From positions 1-42,590 of IMG/VR virus record IMGVR_UViG_3300047321_000105: a stretch of 42,590 nucleotides of DNA; one strand, 5' to 3'. The notes under the pieces are model-generated. The model was not told where the DNA came from, did no database searches, and saw only the letters and a list, made by a program, of their open reading frames with translations. Positions 9,170-28,204 of the stretch are shown here, piece by piece; position 1 is the stretch's first letter; each line of letters begins with the position of its first letter. A program made the translations under genes and the position numbers. Origin of the DNA: a virus.

Positions 9170-10873
9170 ATGACAGAGCAAGCCGTAGACCCACTGAAGC
9201 AAGACTTCAGAAACTTCCTGTATCTGGTGTGGCGACACCTTAACTTGCCAACCCCCACCCCGGTTCAATACGACATCGCGCGGTTCCTCCAGCACGGCCC
9301 TAAGCGGCGCATCGTGGAAGCATTCCGTGGTATCGGCAAGAGCTGGATCACCGCAGCCTATGTGCTGTGGCTGCTGTACTGCAACCCCGAAGAACGCATC
9401 CTGGTGGTGTCCGCGTCCAAGGGCCGCGCTGATGCGTTCTCTGTGTTCGTCAAGCGGCTCATCGCTGAGATGCCACTACTGCACCACCTGAAGCCTAGAG
9501 AGGGCCAGCGGGACTCCATCGTGGCCTTTGACGTTGGACCAAGCTCAGCCCACCAGGCCCCTTCAGTTCGCTCGGTTGGCATCACGGGCCAACTCACTGG
9601 TGGCCGCGCTACGCACATCATTGCGGATGACGTTGAGGTTCCGAACAACGCACTAACCCAGACCATGCGGGACAAGCTGGCTGAGGCGGTCAAGGAGTTC
9701 GATGCTGTGTTGGTCCCTGGCGGTGTCATCACCTACCTGGGCACGCCTCAGACCGAGATGAGCCTGTACAACGTACTCCCTGAGCGTGGGTATGTGGTTC
9801 GCGTGTGGCCCGCTCGATTCCCTAACGCTGCCCTCAGGGCTCGCTATGGTGACCGGCTGGCACCGTTCGTATCGAAGAAGCTGGACAAGGACCCGACTCT
9901 GGCTGACCAGTGCAGTGGCCGTGGGGCTGCTGTGGAGCCTTCGCGGTTCCATGACCTGGACCTGTTGGAGCGCTCTGCATCGTATGGCCGTACCGGCTTC
10001 GCCATGCAGTTCATGTTGGATACGAGCTTCTCAGACCAGGACAAGTACCCGCTGAAGCTCTCAGACCTGATGGTTCTGAACCTCAGCACGGACATCGCTC
10101 CGGTCAAACTGGCGTGGGCATCAGGCCCTGACCAGATGCTCAAGGACCTCCAATCGGTTGGCCTTCAAGGTGACCGCTGGTATCGCCCGCTGTTTGTCTC
10201 CAAGGACTTCGTGGAGTACCAGGGCTGTGTCCTTTCCATCGACCCATCGGGCCGTGGCGGGGATGAGACCAGCTATGCAGTGGTGGCCATGCTCAACGGC
10301 TTCCTGTACCTGCTGGCTGCTGGCGGGTTCAAGGGGGGCTACGAGGATGCAACCCTTCAGTCCCTTGCCGATGTCGCTAAGAAGTTCAGGGTGAAGCATG
10401 TGACCGTGGAGCCTAACTTTGGTGATGGCATGTTCACGAAGCTGCTGACCCCGTTCCTCACCCGCACGTACCCTGTGACCACTGAAGAGGTCCGCAGCAG
10501 TGGCCAGAAGGAGCGCCGCATCATTGACGTGCTGGAGCCGGTCATGAACCAGCACAGGCTTGTGGTCGATGAAGCGCTGGTTGAGCGGGACATGGAGAAC
10601 TACAATGAGTACCCTCATGAGAAGTTCCACCAGTACCAGCTCTTCTATCAGATGTCCCGCATCACCCGTGAGCGTGGGGCGCTGGGCAAGGATGACCGCA
10701 TTGATGCCCTGGCGATGGCCGTGGCCTACTGGGTGGAGCAGATGGACAAGGACACCCAGAAGGTCCTGGATGACCACAAGAACGAGATGCTCAGGCTGGA
10801 GCTGGAGAAGTTCTCTCAGCATGTCTTTGGGTACGCCCCTCCGAGTGACAATTGGGGCGATGACTGGAACTAG
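9170..10873 (+). CDS. terL: Terminase large subunit, T7 gp19-like
   Basis: A 567-residue packaging motor (T7 gp19 is 586 aa). The N-terminal ATPase has a Walker A-like FRGIGKSW (K57) and a Walker B-like IIADDVE. The C-terminal RNase H-fold nuclease begins at SIDPSGRGGDE (D358), with later acidic residues in DDRIDALAMAV. It pumps DNA into the prohead bound to the portal and cuts concatemers. It is the last rightward gene before the junction region, as in T7. The ATG at 9170 follows the hairpin-leader cassette by 45 bases. The preceding GGAG lies about 10 bases upstream. Confidence 0.95.
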   Translation: MTEQAVDPLKQDFRNFLYLVWRHLNLPTPTPVQYDIARFLQHGPKRRIVEAFRGIGKSWITAAYVLWLLYCNPEERILVVSASKGRADAFSVFVKRLIAEMPLLHHLKPREGQRDSIVAFDVGPSSAHQAPSVRSVGITGQLTGGRATHIIADDVEVPNNALTQTMRDKLAEAVKEFDAVLVPGGVITYLGTPQTEMSLYNVLPERGYVVRVWPARFPNAALRARYGDRLAPFVSKKLDKDPTLADQCSGRGAAVEPSRFHDLDLLERSASYGRTGFAMQFMLDTSFSDQDKYPLKLSDLMVLNLSTDIAPVKLAWASGPDQMLKDLQSVGLQGDRWYRPLFVSKDFVEYQGCVLSIDPSGRGGDETSYAVVAMLNGFLYLLAAGGFKGGYEDATLQSLADVAKKFRVKHVTVEPNFGDGMFTKLLTPFLTRTYPVTTEEVRSSGQKERRIIDVLEPVMNQHRLVVDEALVERDMENYNEYPHEKFHQYQLFYQMSRITRERGALGKDDRIDALAMAVAYWVEQMDKDTQKVLDDHKNEMLRLELEKFSQHVFGYAPPSDNWGDDWN

Positions 10874-11178: not shown

Positions 11179-11491
11179 AAGGGTCTCCTAGCGGGGGCCT
11201 AAATGTTACCCGGAAAAATCTCAGTGGGTATCTGATAAAGTCGGACGGCCAGATCCCCCCCGTGGCCCTCCGCACACTCAGGCACCCACGCACCCTCCTT
11301 GACGCGCATCAGGTAACACGCGCGAATCCAGTACGCGCACATGCGCATCTATCCAGGCGATGGGCTCTCCTGGGCACCTTTGGTCACGCTACTGGTCACG
11401 TTGTGAGCTAACTCCTTGATTCCATTAGGGTGGCGGAGGATTGAGAATCCTATGCCTGGTCACACATGCAGTAGAAGCACAGCACACACAG
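11179..11491. other. Non-coding junction region, probable terminal-repeat location
   Basis: No convincing gene. It holds a C-rich patch near 11255, a tandem pair of GGTCACG (11382 and 11394, 12-bp spacing) that is an inverted version of the repeats around attP, and a small perfect inverted repeat GGATT-GAG-AATCC at 11438-11450. T7-like phages have their direct terminal repeats between terminase and the first early promoter, so in this circularised contig the single collapsed copy should lie within about 10990-11770. Confidence 0.4.
11379..11400. repeat. Tandem TGGTCACG pair, 12-bp period
   Basis: TTTGGTCACG at 11379-11388 and CTGGTCACG at 11392-11400, spaced 12 bp. Read on the other strand this is CGTGACCAAA, the same unit and the same 12-bp period as the pair at 16370-16392. 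It may be a distant binding site for the same protein, perhaps the integrase arm-binding domain. Confidence 0.45.
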
Positions 11492-14884: not shown

Positions 14885-15271
14885 ATGAGCATCACCGCAC
14901 TTCACGTAGCAGCAGAAGTCTTGCAATTGTTTCGCCAGCTCAGCACTGACAAACTGGAAAAGCAGGACGTTCCGCCTAACCTGGTAGTGGTGTTTGCGGC
15001 AGTGGCAGCTAATCCGGGACGTTCCCTTAAGGAACTCCAGGATGCAACGGGACTAGGCCAGGCGGTGATGTCCAGGACATGTGCGATGCTTGGTAGAGGG
15101 AAGCCAGCAGCGGGCATCAATGGGCTGGGCCTAGTGAGCACCGAGGAAGACCCAGAGAACTACAGCAGAAAAATCGTGAATCTAACTCCAGAGGGGGAGA
15201 AGCTCCTGGAGCAGATTGACGAGCAGCTAGGCCGGTTTGTTAGGTCAAGGCCTGGTAAGGCCCAGCAGTAA
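14885..15271 (+). CDS. MarR-like winged-helix regulator
   Basis: A 128-residue protein with a MarR-type layout: an N-terminal helix (about 5-20), a winged helix-turn-helix from about residue 35 to 105 (SLKELQDATGLGQAVMSRTC as the recognition region, a wing around ENYSRKIVNLT), then TPEGEKLLEQIDEQLGRFV, the usual C-terminal dimer helix. The strong ribosome site AAAGGGGTAGGAA precedes the ATG. T7 has no such gene. Placed between a palindrome-bearing control region and the integrase, it is the best candidate for a lysogeny repressor or switch protein. That role is inference, and MarR members can also activate. A terminator follows immediately. Confidence 0.75.
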   Translation: MSITALHVAAEVLQLFRQLSTDKLEKQDVPPNLVVVFAAVAANPGRSLKELQDATGLGQAVMSRTCAMLGRGKPAAGINGLGLVSTEEDPENYSRKIVNLTPEGEKLLEQIDEQLGRFVRSRPGKAQQ

Positions 15272-15278
15272 CCCTTCA

Positions 15279-15306
15279 GGCCACCTTCGGGTGGTCTGTT
15301 TCGTTT
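15279..15306 (+). terminator. Intrinsic terminator between regulator and integrase
   Basis: GGCCACC-TTCG-GGTGGTC (7-bp stem with one G-T pair, stable UUCG loop), then TGTTTCGTTT. It separates the MarR-like gene from the integrase. The tail leads into the TTTACCC leader motif used before other genes. Confidence 0.7.
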
Positions 15307-15322
15307 ACCCTTTGGAGGCCGC

Positions 15323-16597
15323 ATGGCGTCACTCTACAAGCGCCCAGACAGTGATGTGTGGTGGATGGATTACCGGGACCCTTCCGGCAAGCGCCACCGG
15401 GAAACCACCCGCACCACTATTAAGAAGGAAGCTGAGCTGGTTATGGCCCAGGTCATGGCTGGCGTTAAGGCCCAGCGTAAGGCTGGCGCTAAGGTTGGCT
15501 ACGGGCCGACTCTCAAGGAAGCCTATAAGGAAGCCATGAGGGAGTACAAGCCGTGGCGGGATTCAACTGACCAGAAGACCATCAACGCCAACCGCAAGGC
15601 CATTGAGGGCCACTTCGGGGAAGACACCCGGCTGTCAGCTATCAGCCGTGAGGCCATCATCGGGTTCGTCAAAGCCCAGCGCGAAGCGGGCAGAGCGGGC
15701 AGCACGATTAACCAGCGGCTCTCCCAGCTCTCCGTTCTGTTCGATGAGGCCACCGACCACTGGGGCTATGGTGAGCTGGTCAAGCCCCGCATGGTCCGTG
15801 AGAAGGTGGCTGAGGGACGCAAGCGTAGATTCAGCCTGGAGGAAGAGAGCCAGGCGCTGGAGCTGCTGGAGCAGGACCGCAGCGATTACGCCCATGACAT
15901 CGCAGACCTCTTCAGGGTCCTGTTTGATACCGGCTGCCGCATCACTGAGGTCCTGACCATCACGGCCAAGACTTACGACCTGGACAAGCAGCTCATCATT
16001 CTGTGGCATACCAAGAACAAGCAGCCCAGAGGTGTCCCGATGACCCCGCGAGTTCACGCTATCCTCACCGCTCGGTCTCACCTTGAGATGCCGTTCGGGA
16101 CCCTCACGTACAACATCGCATACAAGGCTTGGGCTCGTGTGAGGGATGAGATGGGGTTCTCAGCGGGCGAAGAGTTCGTGCCTCATGTGGTGCGCCATAC
16201 GGCTGGCTCCAGGCTCGCTGATGCTGGCGTGAGTGGTCCGCTCATTCAGCAAATGCTCGGCCACAAGTCCATCCAAACGACCCAAAAGTACATCCACGTT
16301 TCAGCGGCTGGGCTCCGTGGAGTGGCTGATATTCTGGCTGCTACAAGCTCCGTTGGCAGTGCCCAGGACCGTGACCAAAAACGTGACCAAAAGGTGGCCA
16401 CAGAGATGGTTGATGCTGATGTGGTGGTCTACCAAGGTGTTGATTCAAAAGGGAATCTAGCGGAATCGGTTGGCAAACGCGGGACTCATAATCCGCCTCC
16501 GAAAGGACATCGTGGGTTCGAATCCCACCCGGCCCACCAAAATAACCAAAAGAATCAGCCAGTTAGCGACTCTTCAGATACCGAAGACAATCACTAG
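15323..16597 (+). CDS. int: Tyrosine recombinase (integrase)
   Basis: A 424-residue phage integrase. The N-terminus has the arm-binding AP2-like beta pattern (SLYKRPDSDVWWMDYRDPSG), then a SAM-like core-binding domain (about 75-170). The catalytic domain has R206 (DTGCRITEV), H288 and R291 (HVVRH), H314 (LGHKS) and the nucleophile Y323 (QKYIHVS). All catalytic residues are present. The ATG follows GGAGGCC. The last roughly 38 codons run through a tRNA-like sequence (attP), so residues from about 387 (GTHNPPPKGHRGFESHPAHQ) are translated tRNA and would change on integration. It should integrate and excise the phage DNA. A few T7-like phages, such as the cyanophage P-SSP7, are known to carry integrases. 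Confidence 0.95.
   Translation: MASLYKRPDSDVWWMDYRDPSGKRHRETTRTTIKKEAELVMAQVMAGVKAQRKAGAKVGYGPTLKEAYKEAMREYKPWRDSTDQKTINANRKAIEGHFGEDTRLSAISREAIIGFVKAQREAGRAGSTINQRLSQLSVLFDEATDHWGYGELVKPRMVREKVAEGRKRRFSLEEESQALELLEQDRSDYAHDIADLFRVLFDTGCRITEVLTITAKTYDLDKQLIILWHTKNKQPRGVPMTPRVHAILTARSHLEMPFGTLTYNIAYKAWARVRDEMGFSAGEEFVPHVVRHTAGSRLADAGVSGPLIQQMLGHKSIQTTQKYIHVSAAGLRGVADILAATSSVGSAQDRDQKRDQKVATEMVDADVVVYQGVDSKGNLAESVGKRGTHNPPPKGHRGFESHPAHQNNQKNQPVSDSSDTEDNH
16370..16392. repeat. Left arm-type repeat pair CGTGACCAAAA
   Basis: Two perfect direct copies of CGTGACCAAAA at 16370-16380 and 16382-16392, a 12-bp period, about 90 bp left of the attP core and inside the integrase gene. Short direct repeats flanking a core are typical of integrase arm sites. 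Confidence 0.6.
16481..16539 (+). other. attP: attP core: 3' part of a class II tRNA (probably tRNA-Leu)
   Basis: The segment reads as an anticodon loop CTCATAA, a long variable arm (CTCCGAAAGGA), a perfect T arm (GTGGG-TTCGAAT-CCCAC), an acceptor 3' strand CCGGCCC, discriminator A and CCA. The bases to the left (16459-16480) resemble a leucine-type D arm (GCGGAA to AACGC), but the 5' acceptor strand does not pair and the anticodon stem is imperfect. This is therefore not a working tRNA. It is a copy of the 3' end of a host tRNA gene, as used by many tyrosine recombinases. The long variable arm plus A73 points to leucine. The exact crossover cannot be set without the host sequence. Confidence 0.85.
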
Positions 16598-16605
16598 AAC
16601 ATCAC

Positions 16606-16628
16606 CGTGGCCTTAAACGTGGCCAAAT
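16606..16628. repeat. Right arm-type repeat pair CGTGGCC
   Basis: CGTGGCCTTAAA and CGTGGCCAAATG at 16606 and 16618, again a 12-bp period, about 70 bp right of the attP core. The unit differs from the left pair by one base in its core (GTGGCC for GTGACC). Confidence 0.5.
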
Positions 16629-16640
16629 GAACACCAAAAG

Positions 16641-16672
16641 AGCCCCGGCTGGGAAACCAGTGCGGGGCTTTT
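16641..16672 (+). terminator. Intrinsic terminator downstream of int/attP
   Basis: GCCCCG and CGGGGC close a hairpin with an inner CTGG/CCAG stem and a GAAA loop, followed by TTTT. In the free phage it ends integrase transcription. In the prophage it would lie between the rebuilt host tRNA gene and the phage RNA polymerase gene. Confidence 0.8.
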
Positions 16673-16695
16673 CGTTTGTCCAAAAGCCTTCCACT

Positions 16696-16740
16696 CGTGA
16701 CATACCGTGACCACCCGCCTGGACACGGCTGTGACCAAAA
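16696..16740. repeat. Further arm-type repeats right of attP
   Basis: CGTGACA at 16696, CGTGACC at 16706 and TGTGACCAAAA at 16730-16740, related to the 16370-16392 pair. They extend the right arm to about 200 bp from the attP core, a normal arm length for phage integrases. Confidence 0.45.
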
Positions 16741-16747
16741 ACCACCG

Positions 16748-16770
16748 ATAAAAACCCACTCTCGCGGTGG
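16748..16770 (+). promoter_or_regulatory. Phage RNA polymerase promoter P2, upstream of the polymerase gene
   Basis: ATAAAAACCCACTCTCGC with G16764 as predicted +1; it continues GGTGGAGA instead of TCTAC. It is about 200 bp upstream of the polymerase start with a hairpin between, so the polymerase can transcribe its own gene. Confidence 0.75.
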
Positions 16771-16961: not shown

Positions 16962-19385
16962 ATGACCACCACAGACAACCTCCACGCTCTCCAGATTGAA
17001 CTCGAAGAGGAAGCCATCGGCCTTGGCATGAAGCGCTACAACGAGCAGATGGCCAACGGTGAAGACACCCTGCCGCCTGGCCTGAAGCTCATGAAGGCTG
17101 CCATCGAGCCCACCGCAGCAGCCATTGAGCAGTTCATTGAAGAGGGCCTTAAGGGGGCCGCAGCGCGGTCTGTTGGCATCATCAAGTTCCTGGACCAGTT
17201 CGAAGACCGCAAGCTGGTGGCGTTCATCACAGCCAAGATTGTGTTCAACCACATGGGCAAGATGTCCGTGCTGGGGGCTGTGGCCAATGACGTGGCCAAC
17301 CGGCTGGAGGACTGCCTGAACTTCGATGCGCTGAAGGCCGCTGAGCCCAAGCTTTATAAGCAACTGCTGAAGAAGATTGAACACAGCCGCGATGAGCGCC
17401 ACCGCCACATCGTGCTGCGGGTCCAGCAGAAGTTCGCCAAGGTGGCCACCATCACCTGGGGCAAGGCTGAAAAGATTCGCCTGGGCACCACGCTGATTCA
17501 CCTCTTCGCTGACGCTACGGGCCTGGTGGAGATTAAGGAGTACGTGCGTGGGCCGAACGACACCCCTCACATCGTTGCGCCCACTGAAGCCACCGCTAAG
17601 TGGCTCGCTGATGGCCATGCTCGGTGCGCCCTGATGAGCCCCATGTGTATGCCTATGGTGGTCAAGCCGCTTCCCTGGACTGGCCCGTTCGGTGGTGGCT
17701 ACCTGACCAAGCCGATGCGCTTCCCGCTCATCAAGACGGCCAACCGGAACTACCTGGAGGACCTGAAGCAGGTTGATATGCCGATGGTCTACGCCAGCGT
17801 GAACGCTCTCCAGGAAACCCCGTGGGCCATCAATAAGGCTGTCTTCCACGTCATGCGCGAGGTGTGGGATGGGGGTGGCCGCATGGGCAAGCTCCCCAGC
17901 CGTGAGCCGCAAGAACTCCCGCCCAAGCACTTCGACCTGGAGAACCCGGATGCTGAAGAGCTGAAGGCATGGAAGAAGCAGGCCGCTGGTGTCTATGAGA
18001 GCAACATCCGGAACGCCTCCAAGCGGGCTGGGATGTCATCCAAGCTGTGGATGGCTGAGAAGTTCGAAGACATCGAGCGGTTCTACTACGTCCACAATCT
18101 GGACTGGCGGGGCCGTGCGTACCCTGTGGCCACCTTCCTGAACCCGCAAGGCTCAGACTCCGATAAGGCGCTCCTTCAGTTTGCCGATGGCTACCCGCTG
18201 GGCGAGAACGGTGCGCGCTGGCTGGCCATCCACGGGGCCAACACCTTCGGCATTGACAAGGTGACCTTCGAAGAGCGCATTAGCTGGGTGGAAGACCACC
18301 AGGAGCAGATTCTGGAGGCTGCCATGAACCCGCTGGATGGTTCCCGCTGGTGGGCTGAGGCCGATAGCCCGTACATGTTCCTGGCGTTCTGCTATGAGTG
18401 GCTGGCGCTCTCAATGCACACCGACCTGGGCAAGCCGCAGGAAGAGTTCATGAGCTACCTGCCGTGTTCGTGGGATGGCGCTTGCAATGGCCTTCAGAAC
18501 TTCTCAGCGCTGCTGAAGGATGCCGTGGGTGGCGCTGCTGTTGGTCTGGTCCCCAGTGACAAGCCTTCGGACATCTATACAGAGGTCTGCAATGCAGCCA
18601 ATGTGCTGATGGCTCAGGAAGCCCTGGAAGGCCACGAGCTGGCCATGAAGTGGCAAGGCAAGATGACCCGTAAGCTGTCCAAGCAGAACACCATGACGAC
18701 CCCTTACGGGGCCACCAAGCGGGGCATGTGCCAGCAGATTGAGTCTGTCTTCCAGAAGATGAAGGCTGAGGGCGCTGACATCACCGTGGACCTGAAGGAT
18801 TGCCAGTATCTGGCTGATACCAATTACCAGGCCATCGGTAAGGTGGTGGTGGCCGCTCACGCAGCTATGGACTGGCTCAGGGATGCCGCTAAGGTGGCCG
18901 CTTCAGACTCGCTGCCCATCCGCTGGGTTACTCCGAGTGGTCTGCTGGTGTTGCAGGACTACCGCCAGATGGTTGGTCAGCGGCTGGACTTCGACGTGGC
19001 AGGTAAGCGTGTCCGCATGATGCTGAAGGATGAAGGTGACAAGCTGGATGGTCGCAAGCAATCAGCGGGCATCTCTCCGAACTTTATCCATTCCTTGGAT
19101 GCAGCCCACATGATGCGCACGGTGAACTACTGCCTGGAGCGTGGCGTGACCTCCTTCGCAATGATCCATGACAGCTACGGCGCACATGCAGGGCTCGCTG
19201 AGACTCTGCGGTTCTGCCTGAAGCGGGCCTTCGTGGACCAGTACAGCGGTGATGTGCTGGGTGACTTCAGGAACCAGCTCGGTGAGCAACTGACACCTGA
19301 ACTGGCTGCTGAGCTGCCCCCGCTGCCCACCAGCGGCGCCCTGGATTTGGAAGGTGTGATGCACTCGGACTATTTCTTTGCCTGA
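16962..19385 (+). CDS. T7-type single-subunit RNA polymerase
   Basis: An 807-residue DNA-directed RNA polymerase (T7 gp1 is 883 aa). Recognised blocks: DWRGRAYPVATFLNPQGSD, equivalent to the T7 DWRGRVYAV region; D505 in DGACNGLQNFSALLKD; K574 and Y582 in SKQNTMTTPYGA, with the same 8-residue spacing as T7 K631/Y639; and D737 in IHDSYG. All catalytic residues are present, so it should be active. It transcribes middle and late genes from the five promoters listed here. The ATG follows AGGAACACATC. Unlike T7, an integrase and attP lie directly upstream and one phage promoter precedes the gene. Confidence 0.98.
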   Translation: MTTTDNLHALQIELEEEAIGLGMKRYNEQMANGEDTLPPGLKLMKAAIEPTAAAIEQFIEEGLKGAAARSVGIIKFLDQFEDRKLVAFITAKIVFNHMGKMSVLGAVANDVANRLEDCLNFDALKAAEPKLYKQLLKKIEHSRDERHRHIVLRVQQKFAKVATITWGKAEKIRLGTTLIHLFADATGLVEIKEYVRGPNDTPHIVAPTEATAKWLADGHARCALMSPMCMPMVVKPLPWTGPFGGGYLTKPMRFPLIKTANRNYLEDLKQVDMPMVYASVNALQETPWAINKAVFHVMREVWDGGGRMGKLPSREPQELPPKHFDLENPDAEELKAWKKQAAGVYESNIRNASKRAGMSSKLWMAEKFEDIERFYYVHNLDWRGRAYPVATFLNPQGSDSDKALLQFADGYPLGENGARWLAIHGANTFGIDKVTFEERISWVEDHQEQILEAAMNPLDGSRWWAEADSPYMFLAFCYEWLALSMHTDLGKPQEEFMSYLPCSWDGACNGLQNFSALLKDAVGGAAVGLVPSDKPSDIYTEVCNAANVLMAQEALEGHELAMKWQGKMTRKLSKQNTMTTPYGATKRGMCQQIESVFQKMKAEGADITVDLKDCQYLADTNYQAIGKVVVAAHAAMDWLRDAAKVAASDSLPIRWVTPSGLLVLQDYRQMVGQRLDFDVAGKRVRMMLKDEGDKLDGRKQSAGISPNFIHSLDAAHMMRTVNYCLERGVTSFAMIHDSYGAHAGLAETLRFCLKRAFVDQYSGDVLGDFRNQLGEQLTPELAAELPPLPTSGALDLEGVMHSDYFFA

Positions 19386-26315: not shown

Positions 26316-28204
26316 GGTTAGTTAGCGACATCGAATCCGATGGCCTGCTGGATTCAATCACGAAGATTCACATGATTGTCCACCGGGACATCGACACCGG
26401 CAAGGTTCACATCTTCAGCTCGGTAGACCCCATCCATACCATCGAAGCTGGCCTTGCGATGGCTCAGGTAGCGGACCTCACGGTTTGGCATAACGGAATC
26501 TCATACGACATCCCAGCCATCCAGAAGCTGTACCCGTGGTTCTCTCTCGCACCCAAGAAGGTCATTGACACGCTGGTGTATGCCCGCCTGGTCTACCCAG
26601 ACCTGTGGGACATCGACACCAAGCTGTACGAGAAGGGCAAGCTCCCCGGCAGCCTCCGCAAGCGTCAGTCACTGGAGGCGTGGGGTTACCGCCTGGGCGA
26701 CTACAAGGGTGACTATGAAGGTGACCCGCTGATTGCCGATGAGAAGGAGCGCAAGGCTCGTAAGTGGGAGCGCTGGAACCAGGCAATGCAGGACTACTGC
26801 GTTCAGGACACGGGAGTGACCCTGAAGCTGTTCCTAAAGCTGGAAGGGAAAGAGTACGCACGGGAGTCCATTGACATTGAACACGCGGTGGCCTGGGTGG
26901 TTGCACGCCAGGAGCGCCACGGGTTCATGTTCGATAAGCGCGCTGCTGCGCGGCTGCTGGCCCTGCTGGTCAAGGAGAAGCTGCGTCAGGAGGAAGAGCT
27001 GGCCACGGTGTTCAAGCCGTTGTGGATGCGTGACGGTCCCATCTTCACCCCGAAGCGAGATGACAAGAAGCGTGGCTACGTTGCAGGCGTTCCGTTCCAG
27101 AAGATCAAGCTGACAGAGTTCAATCCGGGAAGCCGTGACCACATCGCACTGTGGCTCAAGCGGCTCTACGGCTGGAAGCCTGAAGAGTTCACCAATGACG
27201 GCAAGCCGAAAGTGGATGAAACCGTCCTGAACGGTCTTCAGTATCCCGAAGCCAAGGCCCTCCAGAAGTACCTGATGGTGGGCAAGCGCTTGGGTCAGCT
27301 CGCAGAAGGCAAAGAGGCGTGGCTGAAGAACGAGAAGAACGGGCGCATGCATGGCTCGGTCAACAGCAATGGCGCGGTGACAGGCCGGATGACCCACAGC
27401 CGTCCGAACATGGCTCAGGTCCCAGCCAGCTACTCGCCCTATGGCCACGAGTGTAGAGCGCTCTTCATGGTCCCCAAGGGTAAGAAGCTCGTTGGCTCCG
27501 ATGCTGCTGCACTGGAGCTGCGGGACCTCGCTGGGTACATGGCTGCCTACGATGGCGGTGACTATGTGAAGGTGGTTCTCGAAGGGGATAAGAGCAAGGG
27601 CACTGACATCCACTCGGTCAACGCTAGGGCTCTTGGGTTGGACCCGAAAGGAACCTACTTCGATGGTGAGAGTGGCCGCGACATTGCCAAGACCTGGTTC
27701 TATGCGTTCATCTACGGAGCTGGCGATGAGAAGCTGGGCTTCATCACCGCGCGGGTGAAGGGTCCAAAGGCTCGCTCCGCTGGCAAGAAGAGCCGTGCCG
27801 ACTTCATGCGCAACCTCCCTGCACTGGGCAAGCTCGTTGAGCGTGTCAAGGCCGCAGTGAAAGAACGCGGATTCCTCAAGGGACTCGATGGCCGCATCCT
27901 GCACATCCGCTCACAGCACGCCGCTCTGAACACCCTGTTGCAATCCGCTGGTGCAGTCCAAATGAAAAAGGCAATTCAACTCGCTGATGCTGAGTACCAG
28001 TCACGCGGCTGGGTTCCGGGAGTGAAGTATGAGTTTGTCGCTCTTGTTCACGATGAAGCTCAGATTGAGGCTGACGAAGACATCGCGGAAGAGGTAGGCC
28101 GCATCTTCGTTGAGTCTATCCGCAAAGCTGGCGAGTACTTCAAGTTCAAGTGTCCGCTGGATGGCGAGTATCAGGTAGGCAGCAACTGGGCTGAGACCCA
28201 CTGA
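26312..28204 (+). CDS. DNA polymerase, T7 gp5-like family A
   Basis: 630 residues (T7 gp5 is 704), GTG start overlapping the upstream stop. The 3'-5' exonuclease is intact: D6 and E8 in VSDIESDG, HNGISYD, and YCVQDTGVT. Polymerase motifs: DAAALELRDLAGY (motif A), the O-helix region with FYAFIYGAGDEKLGF (motif B) and LVHDEAQIE (motif C). The thumb segment that in T7 carries the roughly 76-residue thioredoxin-binding loop is reduced here to about 25 residues between FKPLW and GYVAGVPF, so use of host thioredoxin as clamp is unlikely. It copies the phage genome. Confidence 0.97.
   Translation: MRLVSDIESDGLLDSITKIHMIVHRDIDTGKVHIFSSVDPIHTIEAGLAMAQVADLTVWHNGISYDIPAIQKLYPWFSLAPKKVIDTLVYARLVYPDLWDIDTKLYEKGKLPGSLRKRQSLEAWGYRLGDYKGDYEGDPLIADEKERKARKWERWNQAMQDYCVQDTGVTLKLFLKLEGKEYARESIDIEHAVAWVVARQERHGFMFDKRAAARLLALLVKEKLRQEEELATVFKPLWMRDGPIFTPKRDDKKRGYVAGVPFQKIKLTEFNPGSRDHIALWLKRLYGWKPEEFTNDGKPKVDETVLNGLQYPEAKALQKYLMVGKRLGQLAEGKEAWLKNEKNGRMHGSVNSNGAVTGRMTHSRPNMAQVPASYSPYGHECRALFMVPKGKKLVGSDAAALELRDLAGYMAAYDGGDYVKVVLEGDKSKGTDIHSVNARALGLDPKGTYFDGESGRDIAKTWFYAFIYGAGDEKLGFITARVKGPKARSAGKKSRADFMRNLPALGKLVERVKAAVKERGFLKGLDGRILHIRSQHAALNTLLQSAGAVQMKKAIQLADAEYQSRGWVPGVKYEFVALVHDEAQIEADEDIAEEVGRIFVESIRKAGEYFKFKCPLDGEYQVGSNWAETH

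Follow-up and report, generated by a model that had tools for sequence, protein, structure and literature searches.

Direct repeats as probable integrase arm sites around a tRNA-identical attP core, and a candidate second integrase site, in a T7-like virus genome

The DNA analysed here, hereafter the window, is the 42,590-base virus record IMGVR_UViG_3300047321_000105, which is T7-like by its RNA polymerase (RNAP) and terminase genes. A tyrosine integrase gene (int) lies just upstream of the RNAP gene and downstream of a regulator gene, and the phage attachment site (attP) sits between int and the RNAP gene. The attP core is flanked by short direct repeats, which, judging from the sequence, are very probably the arm-type sites of a lambda-type attP, at which the N-terminal domain of the integrase would bind. 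The features of the locus, including sites for integration host factor (IHF), whose consensus we take to be WATCAANNNNTTR, are as follows:

15323-16597, plus strand: tyrosine integrase gene, 424 amino acids (open reading frame; PF00589, E 2e-22; phrog_1, E 9e-54)
16370-16392, plus strand: left arm pair, CGTGACCAAAA twice, 12 bp apart, inside int (presumed binding site)
16433-16445, minus strand: perfect match to the assumed IHF consensus, left of the core
16482-16539, plus strand: attP core, from GGACTCATAATCC (GGA-N7-TCC, tRNA anticodon stem-loop) through the tRNA 3' end, defined by identity with the host tRNA
16553-16565, plus strand: IHF-like site with 1 mismatch, between the core and the right arm
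16606-16628, plus strand: right arm pair, CGTGGCC at 16606 and 16618, 12 bp apart, after the int stop
16696-16740, plus strand: third motif cluster, just before a phage promoter (CGTGACA at 16696, CGTGACC at 16706, TGTGACCAAAA at 16730)

All seven repeat strings were found at the positions given in the initial annotation, which had proposed them as arm sites, and the left pair lies inside the int coding sequence, as had been stated. The motif is concentrated at this place: positions 16340-16760 (421 bp) hold six plus-strand copies of YGTGRCC, compared with 0.28 expected from the motif density elsewhere in the window (Poisson P 5e-7). The longer YGTGACCAAAA has three copies in the whole window, all of them within 16340-16760, and CGTGACCAAAA occurs twice. 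With at most one mismatch per copy, two pairs of YGTGRCCAAA 12 bp apart are present in the window (at 16370, and at 17279 inside the RNAP gene); at most two mismatches add the pair at 16606 and a minus-strand pair near 11391, and 20 dinucleotide shuffles contained none. The pair at 17279-17300 (TGTGGCCAA/CGTGGCCAA) is probably a chance or codon repeat, and its location inside the RNAP gene indicates that 12-bp pairs of this motif can arise in coding DNA. The constant 12-bp period that had been claimed holds for both pairs flanking the core, whereas the third cluster proceeds in steps of 10 and 24 bp; nor is the period constant across relatives, in which spacings of 11, 12, 13 and once 22 bp were found and one phage (L132) has one clear left copy. 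The wording that the protomers bind on one DNA face is not supported, 12 bp being ~1.14 helical turns. The third cluster (16696-16740) may be bound by the integrase or may belong to the polymerase promoter next to it.

The core, initially placed at 16481-16539, required a slight correction: identity with host DNA begins at 16482 and extends to 16539-16541, varying with the genome compared. In all 13 exact matches, 16482-16539 corresponds to the 3' end of an 88-nucleotide tRNA from the anticodon stem onward, and all 13 records are titled Paraburkholderia or Burkholderia. This identity with a host tRNA end indicates both the host group and the bacterial attachment site (attB). The core contains a putative 7-base overlap, CTCATAA. 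Ten plasmid records from Cupriavidus and Paraburkholderia also carry copies of the core, with 84-97% similarity. The statement that the repeats bracket an attP core is borne out by the identity of the core with the host tRNA end and by the IHF-type sites between the core and the repeats. ARAGORN calls the host gene tRNA-Met with anticodon cat. The 88-nucleotide host tRNA (L038-L050) has a long variable arm despite the anticodon CAU, which is unusual for tRNA-Met; the attB tRNA is perhaps an odd tRNA species.

To what extent are the repeats associated with the integrase in other phages? Integrase scans yielded thirteen records with an integrase 54-64% identical to that of the window (L001-L012 and L028), and L132 (56%) was added later; L013-L015 (28-30%) and L031 (25%) were left out of the family counts, and L003/L004 and L006/L007 are near-identical pairs. 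A first scan of bacterial genome contigs with integrase alignment found no relative. Repeated arm-type sites are present on both sides of the core in the window and nine relatives, with L132 weaker on the left. The initial annotation had suggested checking whether the repeats move with the integrase, and in the window and the five relatives measured they do recur beside int: in the window, L001, L002, L003, L008 and L028, the left repeats lie at the 3' end of int and the right pair 229-242 bp downstream. Both pairs are spaced at 12 bp in the window, the L002 group, L003 and L008, while the left and right spacings are 12 and 13 bp in L001 and 11 and 12 bp in L028. The motif of the relatives is roughly YGTGNCYNAA, and the left copies of L003 read GCG. 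The cores are more varied, those of L001 and L132 being tRNA-Leu-like and that of L135 (integrase 47% identical) tRNA-Lys. No tRNA is apparent in the L002 group, L003, L008 and L028, in which the GGA-N7-TCC inverted repeat is present (in L028 with eight bases between); Rfam searches found no RNA in L002, L003 and L008, and ARAGORN found no tRNA in nine loci, including L001 and that of the window.

Around the core centre (16488), the layout of the window attP is near-symmetrical: an arm pair at -118/-106, an IHF site at -55 to -43, the IHF-like site at +65 and an arm pair at +118/+130. In the 42.6 kb of the window, only two perfect matches to the IHF consensus occur, one in attP and the other in a second site described below. 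When one mismatch is allowed, all 10 phages tested have the right IHF site and 5 of them the left. This arrangement resembles lambda attP, in which the core is flanked by IHF sites and then by arm-type sites on both sides, and the lambda IHF sites, inverted at -47 and -125 and direct at +33 of the core, have the same orientations as those of the window (-55 and +65). Lambda also has a seven-base overlap, and its GenBank 'int 4' binding feature (27814-27854) overlaps the end of the int gene; thus, the location of the left pair inside int is not strange. The differences are that the arms of the window are symmetrical pairs ~118 bp from the core, all on one strand, and that its core lies inside the int reading frame and equals a tRNA anticodon arm. 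As described in passages of PMC4880445, the N-terminal domain of lambda Int holds the arm sites, the rest of the protein holds the core sites, and IHF bends unite them. By analogy, the N-terminal domain of the window integrase would hold the arm sites, and IHF would bend the DNA on each side of the core and thereby allow one integrase to hold an arm site and a core site together. Crossover would occur in the 7-base region of the GGA-N7-TCC core, and attP would be joined to the 3' end of the tRNA gene, which would be restored. We infer binding, bending, the crossover position, directionality and the role of the integrase tail.

The protein is by its sequence a tyrosine recombinase with the conserved R, K, H-R, H and Y: residues R206, K231, H288, R291, H314 and Y323, presumably the catalytic ones, are invariant in nine aligned integrases. 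Residues beyond ~340 (the last ~80) form a variable tail, which encodes the left pair and reads through the attP core. For a full-length model, the best PDB hit was lambda Int 1z1b (E 1e-7, template modelling (TM) score 0.37-0.43), with a mean predicted local distance difference test (pLDDT) score of only 62; residues 1-40 are predicted to form three strands and a helix (pLDDT 83-91).

Records that appear to be integrated copies provide one additional line of evidence. Integration at attP between int and the RNAP gene would leave the RNAP gene at one end of a provirus and int at the other, as is the case in three records (G411, G413 and G407), which suggests that they are trimmed proviruses split at attP. 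In G411, the RNAP, terminase and integrase are 89%, 98% and 47% identical, respectively, to those of the window. In L135, the int end of G411, the int frame passes at 15083-16573 through the tRNA core into apparent host DNA, and integration seems to change the integrase tail there. A search of 12 host genomes for a close prophage found only distant integrases (best 57.5 bits), and this candidate was rejected. A T7-like RNAP is present in 9 of 398 genomes of the bacterial family of genome G001 (32-36% identity); four of these RNAP-bearing prophages have integrase matches that are 25-31% identical, three of the four on the strand opposite the RNAP gene.

Several observations weigh against the arm-site interpretation. 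The IHF consensus and the arm motif are both short, and the left IHF site is missing at up to one mismatch in L002, L005, L006, L010 and L011, i.e., in 5 of the 10 phages. In L132 a single left copy is clear and the right copies are spaced at ~13 bp, the left copies of L135 are 22 bp apart, and the attP region of a more distant phage (L109) contains no direct pair of its second-site motif. On the protein side, the pLDDT of the integrase model is low from residue 282 onward; Pfam assigned no arm-binding domain family to the window integrase and gave weak matches among 10 relatives (Arm-DNA-bind_2 in 7, best E 0.025; Arm-DNA-bind_4 in 2, best 0.011; DUF6538 in 8, best 2e-6), and a Foldseek search with the N-terminal domain alone gave a best E of 0.6, which is not significant. 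The assignment of the three split records as proviruses, in turn, draws on the ends of the records.

The genes and signals around attP, which bear on the alternative explanations, are as follows:

14885-15271, plus strand: transcriptional regulator gene upstream of int (phrog_9665, E 1e-18; MarR-like by position and PHROG)
16638-16672, plus strand: hairpin (inverted repeat I11) followed by T-rich DNA, a likely transcription terminator after int
16962-19385, plus strand: T7-like RNAP gene (PF00940, phrog_414)

A Pfam search with the regulator (14885-15271) gave no family. Sequences resembling TAAAAACCCACTCTCGCGG, with zero to three mismatches, occur at 16749, 19428, 19689, 32698 and 10918 (plus strand), and by their sequence they are probably promoters of the phage RNAP.

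One alternative is that the repeats are operators of the MarR-like regulator, which would silence the phage RNAP promoter and early genes in lysogeny. The regulator gene (14885-15271) precedes int, motif copies adjoin the promoter at 16749, and the second site precedes the early region; in addition, a passage of the LUZ100 paper (PMC10134795) relays the hypothesis, citing Boeckman 2022, that MarR sites flank a promoter upstream of the RNAP gene. The attP-region repeats of the phages LUZ100 and BB8 also include inverted copies. MarR dimers bind palindromes, but the attP copies of the window are direct and on one strand, with no minus-strand match in 16340-16760 at up to one mismatch, and the palindromic site expected of a MarR-family operator is lacking in the window attP. 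Moreover, the left pair lies inside int, ~380 bp before the promoter, and IHF-type sites and GGA-N7-TCC cores accompany the repeats both at attP and at the second site, so that an operator role appears quite improbable. Far less credible still is the idea that the left pair is simply a repeated RDQK codon motif in the integrase tail, produced by chance tandem duplication and without function in the DNA. It is true that the 12-bp unit is exactly four codons and that a comparable 12-bp pair exists in the RNAP gene at 17279. However, the left copies share one reading frame in the window, the L002 group and L028 and occupy another in L001, L003 and L008, which indicates that the DNA is conserved and the codons are not; the amino acids of the integrase tail around these copies are not conserved among relatives, and in the phages compared the right pair is located beyond the end of int. 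Conservation as codons only, which the initial annotation had named as the pattern that would speak against arm sites, is thus not what was found, and a codon repeat as the sole explanation was rejected. The arm-site interpretation is supported, at the level of sequence comparison, by recurrence of the repeats with the integrase, by their not being kept as codons, and by their bracketing of a tRNA-identical core and IHF-type sites. Taken by itself, this attP is an ordinary lambda-type site of good quality, of use in assigning the phage to Paraburkholderia-like hosts and in building an integration tool.

The surprise lies elsewhere in the window. The initial annotation mentioned neither the IHF-type sites nor a second site at 11377-11450, which lies shortly after the terminase gene:

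9170-10873, plus strand: terminase large subunit (TerL) gene (tblastn against 2616 phage records)
11377-11400, minus strand: arm pair, CGTGACCAGTAG and CGTGACCAAAGG, 12 bp apart
11409-11421, minus strand: perfect IHF consensus, AATCAAGGAGTTA
11438-11450, minus strand: core, GGATTCTCAATCC (GGA-N7-TCC)

With a core, an IHF site and one arm pair, i.e., the parts of lambda attL, this appears to be an integrase-type site. It is located 504-577 bp after the terminase stop. Its putative overlap differs from that of attP (TTCTCAA vs CTCATAA), and the two overlaps likewise differ within relatives. The combination of IHF site and arm pair was found in 9 of 10 phages tested, L002 having one IHF mismatch, and in all 9 strict hits the GGA-N7-TCC core lies exactly 29 bp before the IHF site. 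The gap from the IHF site to the first arm is 9 bases in 11 sites of the family and L135, and 8 in two more distant phages (L109 and L110). Among records with an integrase at least 54% identical, the window included, the second site is present in 12 of the 12 whose DNA reaches the place; L009, L010 and L012, whose sequences stop short of it, are excluded from this count. Neither 13 bacterial loci and 11 isolate phages, with 559,874 bases in total, nor 300 two-base-block shuffles of the window contained the same combination. The idea that left and right arms co-evolve (GTGACC, GTGCCC or GTGGCT matched within a phage) was considered and rejected because L001 mixes variants between attP and the second site. 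Passages of PMC4880445 describe the parts of a synapsis-competent attL, and the second site holds these parts. It differs from attL, which is an integration product, in belonging permanently to the phage genome and having an overlap of its own, and it is more compact (IHF site at +23 and arms at +44/+56 from the centre). Judged from search results alone, an open-access library showed no publication describing a site of this kind in T7-like phages.

Another important question is how widely this architecture is distributed. A viral contig collection was scanned for a core, 16 bases, the IHF consensus, 9 bases and two GTGNC 12 bp apart, which returned 31 stretches: 17 contigs already known here and 14 new ones; the reversed pattern over the same collection returned none. 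A T7-like terminase gene, 48-99% identical to that of the window, is present in 12 of the 14 new contigs, in every case encoded on the other strand than the site, with its end ~0.4-2.0 kb before it, while of the other two, L229 has an integrase only and L219 (2 kb) has no match. Six new contigs (L217, L218, L222, L227, L229 and L230) extend at least 3.5 kb past the site, and in each of them an integrase gene 26-40% identical to that of the window follows; the eight remaining contigs are too short beyond the site to show one. A variant scan with an 8-base gap added two further T7-like contigs, L109 and L110 (integrases 29-32% identical), and no family member. Among bacterial genomes of the family of G001, there were no hits in 398 for the 8-base pattern and none in 150 for the 9-base pattern. 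As a control, the best 80 of 595 TerL relatives were considered, 63 of which have at least 700 bp after TerL: the core with a perfect IHF site occurs in 6 of these 63 and the full composite in 3. Where an integrase was detected among the best 80, the core and IHF site are present in 4 of 19 relatives and lacking in 15; three loci of this set with 9 kb and no integrase found are without them. L134 (TerL 85% identical) is without the IHF site and has a core, GGATTACTAATCC, and a 12-bp GTGNCY pair near the family distance.

What would be the partner of the second site? A second attP for a host tRNA was considered and rejected, since in 120 genomes of the family of G001 the core pattern had no match with fewer than two mismatches (one match with two mismatches was found), and since three records appear split at the first attP instead. 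The recurrent place after the terminase, the separate overlap and the missing host match point to an identical copy at the other end of the genome as the partner, and such a partner in a terminally repeated genome leads us to propose circularisation driven by the integrase. On sequence grounds, it is a tentative proposal, which we hold somewhat less probable than its negation, that in many T7-like phages with an integrase a further integrase site lies in or beside the terminal repeats and serves circularisation before integration. The entering linear DNA would bear identical direct copies of the second site, one per end, and the integrase with IHF would recombine them and close the linear genome into the circle needed for attP x attB integration. 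This step would fall in the lysogenic branch, in which the phage polymerase, and hence the phage's own recombination genes, would be off, and the unlike overlaps would keep the two reactions apart. Phage P1 provides a precedent: its linear genome is terminally redundant, and Cre acts on loxP within this redundant DNA to circularise it; the proposed likeness is to a second site whose terminal position in the window we place by synteny. The second site, recurring across diverse T7-like phages, offers a concrete and testable route by which a phage with terminal repeats on a linear genome could form a circle before integrating and, if the proposal is true, the genome end, integrase and lysogeny would be coupled in phages long thought strictly lytic.

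Isolate phages allow some comparison of genome ends. The annotated terminal repeat of LUZ100 lies 396-639 bp after the terminase stop, compared with 504-577 bp for the second site of the window, and both have a phage promoter ~45 bp after the terminase. In LUZ100, CGACACAA has 8 copies: two 12 bp apart in each 244-bp repeat, three around attP and one elsewhere. The exact 127-bp repeat of BB8 contains a 12-bp pair of GCCACAA, a word with 10 copies in that genome (4 in the repeats, 1 beside the int stop and 5 elsewhere), and TGCCACAA, with 3 copies, is confined to the terminal repeats and the place beside the int stop. Neither LUZ100 nor BB8 has a core plus IHF site, even in relaxed form. YIMV22061 has, at the corresponding place and strand, a perfect IHF site and a GTGCCCA/GTGACACA pair 11 bp apart without the GGA-N7-TCC core. 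Pairs of attP-region words 11 or 12 bp apart were counted in the 1.1 kb after the terminase, with the following observed/expected values: window 4/0.32, LUZ100 5/0.46, BB8 3/0.19, YIMV22061 2/1.07, Pasto 5/1.38, ProddE 2/0.44, HTVC019P 3/0.49, RHEph21 1/0.28, RHEph01 0/0.34, Lo5R7ANS 13/1.31, HTVC119P 0/0.77 and CRP-118 1/0.17. Many of the counted pairs are other words: the arm pair is only 1 of the 4 in the window, and the named pair accounts for 2 of 5 in LUZ100 and 2 of 3 in BB8, counted once per repeat copy. The pair of HTVC019P lies outside its 162-bp repeat, and RHEph01 has a 512-bp repeat and no pair.

The place of the second site, after the terminase in the 12 new contigs with that gene and 0.5 kb from it in the window, at the position of the terminal repeat in LUZ100, would also suit a signal for packaging or concatemer processing close to the end of the genome, to which terminase would bind together with IHF, as at lambda cosB. 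Indeed, cosB uses IHF and repeated sites, and T7 has short repeats near its ends. We nevertheless regard such a signal as rather unlikely, given that the second site has the attP motif at 12-bp spacing together with an attP-like GGA-N7-TCC core, that an integrase gene follows it in all six new contigs reaching at least 3.5 kb past it and also in L109 and L110, and that the terminal pairs of LUZ100 and BB8 repeat a motif found beside attP. A regulatory complex of integrase and IHF is an alternative, as is an old att remnant, against which the fixed spacing across diverse phages argues.

The gene order of the window is shared with LUZ100, BB8, Pasto, HTVC019P, S-TIP37 and P-SSP7, in which int lies upstream of a T7-like RNAP gene, with a regulator before int in several. 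In cyanophages, according to PMC8776855, a tRNA-Leu segment located downstream of int serves as attP, and integration requires both int and attP; in the window, by contrast, the core is the end of a tRNA-CAU and lies inside int. A term search of the main texts of PMC8776855 and PMC10134795 returned neither "IHF" nor "circular". Finally, a AGGAGCAT stretch lies to the right of the non-tRNA core at 4840-4890 of L006, with similar stretches in L002, L005, L008 and L011, and precedes tiny open reading frames (MTDLNPL or a 28-amino-acid variant) that differ between otherwise similar phages.
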